A stretch of DNA of 32,260 nucleotides from positions 1 through 32,260 of the forward strand of contig JARGGI010000011.1 of NCBI GenBank assembly GCA_029210775.1, in the 5' to 3' direction. The notes under the pieces are model-generated. The model saw only the letters and a list, made by a program, of their open reading frames with translations. It did no database searches and was not told the origin of the DNA. Below, piece after piece: positions 15,401 to 28,194 of this stretch. Source of the stretch: Patescibacteria group bacterium (GTDB taxonomy: Bacteria; Patescibacteriota; Minisyncoccia; JAHIHE01; JAGLIN01). The position numbers were made by a program, and so were the translations under genes. Positions within the stretch are counted from its first letter, which is position 1; the number at the start of each line of letters is the position of its first letter.

Positions 15401-15533
15401 TAACTACTTTGAATTACGAAATAACTAAATTTGTCATAGAGAGCTTATCAAACTATGATTAAAGTTTAGAGCATTTTTCATCCTTCAACAAGCTCAGAGT
15501 GACAAATATATTGAATTTCATAATTTAAGGTTA
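15401..15533. repeat. Dispersed inverted-repeat element, about 133 bp, copy 1
   Basis: The ends (TAACTACTTTGAATTACGAAAT and ATTTCATAATTTAAGGTTA) are imperfect inverted copies. Inside them sit a second pair (ATTTGTCA/TGACAAAT) and a third (AGCTTATCAAA/CTTCAACAAGCTCA). It is the same family as 26820-26951 but more decayed. There is no coding capacity, which suits a MITE-like or REP-like element. Confidence 0.75.
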
Positions 15534-16070: not shown

Positions 16071-16187
16071 ACTGTCATTGCAAGGAATAACGACGAAACA
16101 ATAATAACTACTCGCAAAGAATTAAATCACAAAATTGCCACGTTATTTCCTGTTTTACATAAACAGGAAATTCCTTACAATGACAGT
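16071..16187. repeat. MITE-like element, 117 bp, with 18-bp terminal inverted repeats
   Basis: ACTGTCATTGCAAGGAAT (16071-16088) and ATTCCTTACAATGACAGT (16170-16187) are inverted copies with one mismatch. Inside is a perfect 10-bp hairpin, TTTCCTGTTT/AAACAGGAAA (16146-16170). Its length equals that of the element at 24372-24488, which shares CGAAACAAT and the GTCATT...AATGAC ends, so both belong to one family. Confidence 0.75.
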
Positions 16188-23465: not shown

Positions 23466-24365
23466 ATGCAATCAACACAACAAATTAGAAGACAAATACA
23501 ATCAACTAAAAATACATCGCAAATAACTAAAGCAATGGAAATGGTTGCTGCCTCAAAAATGAAAAAAAGTCAAGAAAGAGCTCTTATGGCACGTCCTTAT
23601 GCAATGGCTGCTCTTGGGATACTTGAAAGTGTAAGTGAGTCTGTTGAACCCAAAAAACATATTTTGCTCAGAAAAAGAGAAGTAAAAAACCTATGCCTTC
23701 TTGTTGTAACTTCTGACAAGGGTTTATGTGGTGGATTAAATAGTAATATCCTTAAAGAAGCAAAAAAAATAATCAAAAAAGAGAAAGATAAAAACATCAC
23801 TATAATTGCAATAGGAAAAAAGACTGAAAATTATTTTAAAAATAAAAATGAAGTTTGTGCTGTTTTTAACGCAATCGGAGATACAATAGAGCTTAGAGAA
23901 ACATTACCAATTTCAAAAATTATCATTGAAGATTTTACAAACAGAAAATATGACAAAGTCATTGCAATATACACAAATTTCATCTCTACAATCAAACAAG
24001 AGGTTAAAGTTAAAAAGCTTTTACCTATAACAAGAAGAAGCATAGAAGAAACTATTGAAGAAATTGAAGATAAACAAGAAAAAGAAGAAACAAATTCGAA
24101 TAATATTGAATATAAATTTGAACCTTCAGCTGAAAAAGTGCTTTGTGATTTGCTTCCAAACTTAATTGAGACACAAGTTTATCATATAATTCTTGAATCA
24201 AATGCCTCTGAACATAGCGCAAGAATGGTTGCAATGAAAAATGCAACTGATAGTGCTCTTGAAATTCTTGATGACTTGAAATTATCATATAATTATATTA
24301 GACAGCAAAAAATTACACAAGAAATAAGTGAAATTTCAGCAGGAGTTGCAGCGCAAGAAGGATAA
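23466..24365 (+). CDS. atpG: ATP synthase F1 subunit gamma
   Basis: Gamma is the central shaft that turns inside the alpha-beta hexamer. The N-terminal helix has IRRQIQSTKNTSQITKAMEMVAASKM and the C-terminal helix has SEHSARMVAMKNATDSALEILDDL, both standard. At 299 residues it is slightly longer than usual because of an acidic insertion near 200-215 (IEEIEDKQEKEETNSNN). A repeat element starts 6 nt past its stop. Confidence 0.97.
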   Translation: MQSTQQIRRQIQSTKNTSQITKAMEMVAASKMKKSQERALMARPYAMAALGILESVSESVEPKKHILLRKREVKNLCLLVVTSDKGLCGGLNSNILKEAKKIIKKEKDKNITIIAIGKKTENYFKNKNEVCAVFNAIGDTIELRETLPISKIIIEDFTNRKYDKVIAIYTNFISTIKQEVKVKKLLPITRRSIEETIEEIEDKQEKEETNSNNIEYKFEPSAEKVLCDLLPNLIETQVYHIILESNASEHSARMVAMKNATDSALEILDDLKLSYNYIRQQKITQEISEISAGVAAQEG

Positions 24366-24371
24366 AACATC

Positions 24372-24488
24372 GTCATTACAAAGGAGTCACAATGACCGAA
24401 ACAATCCCGTGACTATGCACGATGAGTTTAATTACGGGATTGCTTCGTCGCTCACTCCGTTGCGGCTCCGTTTACTTCTCGCAATGAC
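24372..24488. repeat. Dispersed palindromic element, 117 bp, inside the ATP synthase operon
   Basis: The outer ends are GTCATTACAA and GCAATGAC. Inside, CGAAACAATCCCGT (24397-24410) and ACGGGATTGCTTCG (24434-24447) are inverted copies with one mismatch. It begins 6 nt behind atpG. It has the same length and shared blocks as 16071-16187. It has no coding capacity. Confidence 0.75.
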
Positions 24489-24562
24489 ATAATTCCGTTC
24501 TTTGAAAATTTGAAATTGAGTTTTGAAAAAGTATTTTAAAAAAAATACTGGAGGAAGTTATT

Positions 24563-24943
<381 letters not shown>

Positions 24944-26819: not shown

Positions 26820-26951
26820 AATTCCTTTGAGTTACGAAATAGCTAAATTTGTCATAGTGAGCTTGTCGAATTATGATAAATTTGAAGCATTTTCCACCCT
26901 TCGACAAGCTCAGAGTGACAAATATATTGAATTTCGTAATTCAAAGTAATT
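26820..26951. repeat. Dispersed inverted-repeat element, 132 bp, copy 2
   Basis: The 21-bp ends (26820-26840 and 26931-26951) are inverted copies with two mismatches. A second pair, ATTTGTCA/TGACAAAT, and a third, TGAGCTTGTCGAA/TTCGACAAGCTCA (13 bp, perfect), are nested inside. It is the best preserved copy of the family seen at 15401-15533 and in part at 83-103. Lying directly behind atpC, its RNA would fold into a strong hairpin and may serve as the end of the ATP synthase message. Confidence 0.8.
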
Positions 26952-27021: not shown

Positions 27022-28020
27022 ATGAATATCAAACAAACTCTTCAAAATTCAATAAGTATATTAGAACTTCACAACATTCCTTCCGCCTCATTAGATGCGG
27101 AAGTTTTGTTAGTGGAAGTATTAAATAGGAATAAACCGTATAACTATAATAATGTCAACAATCTTAAACGAGAGACTGTCTCGTCAATCTGCGATGCTCC
27201 TCGCAATGACAGTAGAAATTTAGATAAAAGCTGGCTTTATGCAAATAATAACTATGAATTAAACAAAAAAGAAGAAAAACTATTTAATTATTTTATTAAT
27301 CAAAGAAAAAAACAAAAACCTGTTGCATATATTATTAATCGAAAAGAATTTTTTGGTTACGATTTTTATGTGGATGAAAATGTTCTCATACCAAGAGTTG
27401 AAACTGAATTTATCATTGAAGAGACTTTAAAAATTATTAATGAAAATAAAATTCAAAAAAACAAAATTAACCTAATTGATATTGGAACTGGTTCTGGATG
27501 TATTTTAATAAGTATCTTGAATGAACTTAAAAAAAATAATAAAAATAAAATTATACACAAATCTTTTGCAAATGATATTTCTTCAAAAGCAATCAAAATT
27601 TCTCAGTTTAATGCAAAAAAATATAATTTAACAAAACAGATAATATTTTTTAACGAAACTTTTGAAACTTTTATAAAAACAAATAAATCTATTTTTCAAA
27701 ATCAATGTATAATAACTGCAAACCTTCCATATATAAAAAAAAGTGAATATAAAGATCTTCAAATGAATGTTAAAAAATTTGAACCCAAAAATGCTCTTGT
27801 TGGCGGAGAAAACGGACTTGAATTAATTATATTATTAATCAATTTGATATTAGAAATCAAAAACAATTTTAATCCAGATAGTTATATTTTATTTGAAGCT
27901 GATCCGGATCAAATCACAAGAATAAAATTACTATTAAAGAGTAAGTTAAACACTACAGAAATTAGAATAGTTAAAGATTTACGTGGAAAAAATAGAATTA
28001 TTTTGACTAAAATAAAGTAA
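27022..28020 (+). CDS. prmC: Release factor glutamine methyltransferase with coding repeat
   Basis: PrmC methylates the GGQ glutamine of release factors, here the RF1 encoded at 6713-7786. The N-terminal helical domain (about 1-110) is followed by FYVDENVLIPRVETE (116-130). The SAM-binding motif is LIDIGTGSGC (151-160), and the catalytic motif appears as NLPY (ANLPYI, 233-238) where the classic form is NPPY. At 332 residues it is about 50 longer than usual. Much of the excess is at residues 41-78, where bases 27168-27212 are a dispersed palindromic repeat read in frame. The frame is open through it, so the gene is probably active. There is no SD. Confidence 0.93.
   Translation: MNIKQTLQNSISILELHNIPSASLDAEVLLVEVLNRNKPYNYNNVNNLKRETVSSICDAPRNDSRNLDKSWLYANNNYELNKKEEKLFNYFINQRKKQKPVAYIINRKEFFGYDFYVDENVLIPRVETEFIIEETLKIINENKIQKNKINLIDIGTGSGCILISILNELKKNNKNKIIHKSFANDISSKAIKISQFNAKKYNLTKQIIFFNETFETFIKTNKSIFQNQCIITANLPYIKKSEYKDLQMNVKKFEPKNALVGGENGLELIILLINLILEIKNNFNPDSYILFEADPDQITRIKLLLKSKLNTTEIRIVKDLRGKNRIILTKIK
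27168..27212 (+). repeat. Palindromic repeat fragment read in frame within prmC
   Basis: The sequence runs ACGAGA-GACTG-TCTCGT (6-bp inverted repeat) and then GCTCCTCGCAATGACAG. That is the right half of the GTCATTGC...GCAATGAC family also seen at 24372-24488. It codes for about 15 residues around SSICDAPRNDS in the N-terminal domain of PrmC. Confidence 0.75.
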
Positions 28021-28071: not shown

Positions 28072-28194
28072 TTACTTTTTTCTTTTTGCTACTTTTTTCT
28101 TTGCAGGTTTTTTAGCAACTTTTTTCTTTGCTACTTTTTTCTTTGCAGGTTTTTTAGCAACTTTTTTCTTTGCAGGTTTTCTTTTTGTAACCAC
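28072..28194 (-). CDS. 40-residue Lys/Ala/Pro repeat protein, histone-H1-like
   Basis: The frame starts at GTG (28192-28194), with a very strong SD, AAAGGAGG, 9 nt upstream. The product is almost only Lys, Ala, Val and Pro in repeating PAKKKVAK units, ending KRKK. It resembles the C-terminal tails of eukaryotic H1 and the small H1-like proteins of some bacteria that bind and compact DNA. The repeat is visible in the DNA as near-identical 24-45-bp units. It probably binds nucleic acid, which is inference from composition. It is far too small for a folded domain. Confidence 0.75.
   Translation of the reverse strand: MVTKRKPAKKKVAKKPAKKKVAKKKVAKKPAKKKVAKRKK

Follow-up and report, generated by a model that had tools for sequence, protein, structure and literature searches.

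The window (the whole stretch of 32,260 nucleotides analysed, from the genome designated G000) contains the gene prmC, inside which sits a single arm of a palindromic element; fuller copies of this dispersed element lie between other genes (table 1). How secure is the identity of prmC? The open reading frame matches the PrmC equivalog TIGR03534 at 199.5 bits, above the cut-off of 199.1, as well as the Pfam domain PrmC_N, and it is the sole PrmC match in the whole genome. An AlphaFold model, for which 17 sequences (the window and the relatives' loci) were used, has a mean pLDDT of 89.2. Its best matches in the PDB are HemK/PrmC structures, with a TM score by target of 0.91 to 2b3t, the E. coli PrmC–RF1 complex. 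Both the equivalog score and the predicted fold thus point to PrmC. The catalytic motif at residues 234–237 is NLPY, not NPPY. The former is also found in nearly all relatives of the same class (L052–L066), the latter in the distant L067 and L074. Because of this variant we treat PrmC as a family assignment made from profile and modelled fold. The protein is 33% identical to its only named relative, a PrmC from a Rickettsiales MAG, and 43–58% identical to its family relatives; genomes of the class span 0.5–1.5 Mb and 36 families, small sizes that make CPR a plausible placement but are no more than suggestive. Two minor features flank the gene. Between atpC and prmC, at 26843–26927, lies a palindrome of a second family (GAGCTTGTCGAA / TTCGACAAGCTC, ends TTTGTCA / TGACAAA), with a fold z of −7.1 and a similar copy at 15401–15531. 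At 28072–28194, on the minus strand, a short lysine/alanine-rich open reading frame (VTKRKPAKKKVAKKPAKKKVAKK...) with AGGAGG upstream resembles a histone H1-like tail protein.

Table 1. Positions in the window of prmC and of the copies of the dispersed palindromic element.
Feature	Position	Strand	Remarks
prmC (release factor N5-glutamine methyltransferase; family assignment)	27022..28020	+	332 aa, single copy
Right arm of dispersed palindromic element, within prmC	27173..27213	+	in frame as ETVSSICDAPRNDS (residues 51–64)
Candidate left-arm remnant (TGTCA...CAATCT), internal deletion	27153..27164	+	letters compared with full L002 copy
Full element copy, intergenic between ORF 23466–24365 and ORF 24563–24943	24371..24491	+	right arm 24433–24490, 32.7 bits
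Degenerate full element copy, intergenic	16071..16187	+	arms 16071–16102 (−), 25.8 bits; 16128–16187 (+), 16.4 bits

The sequence-only reading of this DNA had proposed that bases 27168–27212 are half a copy of the element, read in frame. The half copy proves to be real and in frame, but its clear part is 27173–27213. Model R1, built from an alignment of 17 arms located elsewhere with the prmC arm left out, finds that arm at 23.6 bits (E 1.5e-6) when compared with the window and at E 5.4e-5 when compared with the whole genome. A DNA search of the genome yields a full palindromic copy, G000:C11:145727-145783, that is 79% identical to the prmC arm (E 5.5e-7). To judge from its letters, a remnant of the left arm may precede the right arm (table 1). 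Might this simply be ordinary PrmC sequence that happens to resemble the repeat? In favour of this there is only the shortness of the match (41 nt). Against it, the arm aligns locally with the arm consensus at a score above those of all 2000 of 2000 shuffles, its GC content is 0.51 within a low-GC gene, and the residues it encodes are absent from insert-free orthologues. The held-out match, the shuffles and the orthologues together refute chance likeness, to which we assign a negligible probability.

How much longer is PrmC at this point? The sequence-only reading put the excess at about 50 residues. The spacer from the end of helix 2 to the SW(L) motif is 35 residues in this genome, 33 in G006 and 31 in G007, but only 4–10 in the insert-free G001, G002, G004, G005 and G017. 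An excess is therefore present, at about 25 residues. Alignment with relatives, which had been suggested as a check, shows that the residues of the insert are missing from insert-free PrmC. The same residues were also sought in distant PrmC proteins, where their conservation would have spoken against a repeat, and were not found. As for the suggestion that the insert might fall in a surface loop, the model has it in a loop for which disorder is predicted: residues 41–64 are the only segment with a pLDDT below 50, and no secondary structure is predicted for them between flanking helices 22–36 and 69–74.

A repeat inside a gene may also mark a decaying or misassembled copy, and this assembly is in 65 contigs, repeats being where assemblers fail. 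The open reading frame, however, runs without a stop across the arm and scores above the family cut-off. Outside the insert pN is 0.25–0.28 and pS 0.47–0.65; with pN at about half of pS, prmC does not have the appearance of a pseudogene. Moreover an insert of this type occupies the corresponding position in G006, a separate genome. A pseudogene or an assembly artefact is thus very improbable.

What kind of element is this? With an E limit of 0.05, a genome-wide model search detected 106 arms, distributed over about 65 sites. In a full copy two arms, each some 40 nt long, face one another, and the loop between them is of similar length (about 40 nt); the arms read TGTCATTGCGAGGAG...CAATCCCGAG, and the ends of full copies are TGTCATTGCGAGGAG... 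and ...CTCCTCGCAATGACA. The full L002 copy folds at a z of −6.85 relative to shuffles, while single arms fold no better than their shuffles (z 0.95 and 0.25). Hairpins within single arms, of the kind found in REPs, are accordingly rejected, and the element is a single long palindrome, not two paired REP units. No open reading frame of 80 aa spans the intergenic copy at 24371–24491; the small open reading frame downstream of it contains an AAT microsatellite encoding a run of asparagines. Among the family relatives, G003 has 108 matches to the element and the others 7–65 (E up to 1). Mobilisation by a RAYT was also considered and was not established: the genome has six matches to a Y1-type transposase, and an arm lies within 1.5 kb of only two of them, never flanking both sides.

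The sequence-only reading had suggested looking for other open reading frames that translate the repeat. A survey of 92 of the 106 arms for overlying open reading frames of at least 80 aa identified about 14 proteins that include the element in frame, and 13 of them have a family match. The proteins are HypE, a MurF-like ligase, Elp3, MnmA, LeuRS (in the editing domain), CysRS, an O-antigen ligase (Wzy_C), MiaB, RecO, AlaRS, two GT4 glycosyltransferases, PrmC itself and one weakly assigned protein. The core of the element occurs in translation in five frames out of six, as APRND, LAMT, VIARS, CHCEE or LSLQG. When LeuRS is compared with a solved homologue, both flanks align and residues 269–298, which correspond to the element, have no counterpart. 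In MurF the element fills the gap separating two aligned stretches, in the GT4 glycosyltransferases it lies between two domains, and in MnmA, RecO and AlaRS it interrupts the profile matches. Orthologues without the insert were found for PrmC, AlaRS and MnmA. The CysRS alignment has no clear gap at the element, which may therefore have replaced residues there. The 14 genic sites compare with roughly 53 of 65 expected from a coding fraction of 0.81, itself taken from this window; such a deficit is expected if selection loses most genic insertions.

If the repeat is translated, is its protein sequence of any use? The sequence-only reading described the insert in PrmC as exapted. For that we find no support, since the comparable insert in AlaRS has similar pN and pS. 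In the AlaRS insert pN is 0.15–0.49 and pS 0.14–0.54, alike in most pairs (32–35 codons, with an uncertain alignment), compared with pN of 0.11–0.17 and pS of 0.62–0.74 in the rest of AlaRS. This suggests little constraint on the amino acids that the insert encodes. Synonymous change is lower inside the AlaRS insert than outside it, which points to some force acting at the level of DNA, possibly gene conversion among the copies or a younger age. The structure model of AlaRS is poor, with a mean pLDDT of 57.

True exaptation would mean that the repeat-derived loop had been recruited for a function, for example in binding the release factor or in regulating PrmC. Retention of the PrmC loop in three related genera (G000, G006 and G007) and of the AlaRS insert in at least five, and the status of PrmC as a single-copy gene of translation, would fit such a role. 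Yet the sequence of the loop differs among those three genera and derives in part from different repeats, the related G001 and G004 do without it, the loop is predicted to be disordered, and the AlaRS insert shows the similar pN and pS just described. We regard exaptation as decidedly unlikely.

The history of the inserts was followed on a tree of MnmA, AlaRS and PrmC with the inserts removed, which groups this genome with G007 and G006 (UFBoot 91). In AlaRS the loop carries the element in G000, G001, G004, G006 and G008 and a remnant of it in G007; the element is absent from G002, G014, G015 and G017. The insert of G000 aligns with those of G006 and G008 at scores of 58 and 57.5, and with the copies of its own genome at 38.5 at most (76 tested). 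Being closer to the inserts of its relatives than to the other copies tested in its own genome, the AlaRS insertion was most likely inherited across genera. The same loop of AlaRS in G005 holds another repeat (PLTPTLSP...). The AlaRS inserts of G004 (L179), G001 (L181) and G007 (L178) look chimeric at the orthologous site, with a left arm of the CATTGCGAG repeat and a right arm like a CATTCTG-type repeat. In MnmA the element occupies one site, and only in G000 and G003.

PrmC presents a more varied picture. At the site described above (site 1) the main element is present in G000 and G006, and none of 2000 shuffles reaches either score. The insert of G007 at this site was tried as the main element and rejected, there being no match to the consensus (P 0.53); instead it is another type of repeat, which matches a repeat in its own genome at E 5.3e-5. 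In G003 the site holds a GC-rich palindrome (PHPSPLPRGEG) with about seven further strong matches in that genome. A second site lies just before motif I. There one repeat is common to G004 and G001, and 19 matches to it occur in the G004 genome; G003 has a different one, with 33 matches. An insert in G016 resembles a third repeat family.

Could site 1 reflect one ancestral insertion that has diverged beyond recognition? This history is compatible with the insert being a tolerated repeat. G000, G007 and G006 form a clade and all have an insert, G008 retains RND, and the authors of the Rickettsia study preferred to derive RPE-4, -6 and -7 from a common origin (PMC3767692). It must nevertheless accommodate the other family at the G003 site, the insert of G007 drawn from a different repeat type of its own genome, and the fact that every insert is closer to genomic repeats than to its PrmC neighbours. 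We consider it possible, though doubtful. The plainest account of PrmC loops filled by varied repeats is that these loops tolerate insertion. That the two loops of PrmC and the one of AlaRS are genuine hotspots, to which unrelated palindromic families are repeatedly steered at the same codons in different genera, seems to us unlikely. If it were so, a preference for the target, or recombination between palindromes, would swap repeats in and out of essential proteins.

We read the PrmC insert as a neutral, tolerated repeat insertion akin to the palindromic elements of Rickettsia, a reading to which we assign a probability of about 0.85. A dispersed palindromic repeat would spread through the genome as non-autonomous DNA; copies that break genes would be purged by selection, and copies that fall in frame in disordered, surface-exposed loops would be tolerated. 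The PrmC copy would be one such survivor, cut down to a single arm between helices 2 and 3 of the N-terminal domain. Its probable translation product is a flexible loop of 20–25 residues that presumably neither aids nor much hurts methylation of the release factors.

The parallel with Rickettsia, already drawn from the sequence, turns out to be close. The Rickettsia palindromic elements (RPEs) are palindromes found in frame within conserved genes (PMC2229807). RPE-4, -6 and -7 have an ATGAC motif in common and occupy solvent-exposed positions. Genes for tRNA synthetases and for tRNA modification are among their targets, as is an O-antigen ligase, and orthologues can carry different RPE groups close to one site (PMC3767692). 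Like the RPEs, the present element is a dispersed palindrome of many copies (about 100–150 bp in the RPEs), located in spacers and also, in frame, within conserved genes that it leaves unbroken. It enters the same classes of gene, carries the frequent ATGAC motif at its ends (TGTCATT...AATGACA), and is one of several repeats that occupy about one position in orthologues; the solvent exposure of RPE inserts may have a counterpart in the predicted disorder of the PrmC loop. It differs in that several unrelated repeat families here fill the same loop in related genera. By analogy, then, the element is one that works like an RPE, the likeness being of behaviour and of the ATGAC motif. The Wolbachia palindromic elements (WPEs), likened by description, are also protein-coding palindromic repeats, in another host. 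Intragenic REPs are known in several phyla (PMC3733652). The CGTC-tagged REPs (Di Nocera 2013, PMC3733652) share TGTC/CGTC ends with an adjoining AT (here in alignment A1, of 17 arms), are mostly head-to-head pairs and have intragenic copies in repair and tRNA genes. Their unit, however, is a stem of 8–9 bp with a loop of 4–5 nt, a hairpin that a single arm here does not fold, and their tail is CCA where the present element has CCCG.

The phenomenon is thus apparently of a known kind in a new lineage. A search of the open-access literature gave no report of elements like these for CPR bacteria. Most descriptions of protein-coding palindromic repeats come from Rickettsia and Wolbachia, and there it was left undecided whether shared sites go back to one old insertion or are hotspots (PMC3767692). 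In the lineage studied here there are signs of both: an AlaRS insert inherited across genera, and a PrmC loop that different repeats occupy in related genera. Since one small genome has about 14 affected proteins, half of them acting in translation, genome comparison can put the question to the test. For annotation there is a warning, that peptides such as APRND, VIARSEATKQS and CHCEE within proteins can be translated repeat. In Elp3 (L129:67-1878) the stretch PPIPAYPKGKPFIKGE after the repeat resembles another translated repeat, and LeuRS (L131:1-2334) has, besides its repeat insert, a NUDIX domain at residues 467–559 in the editing region.
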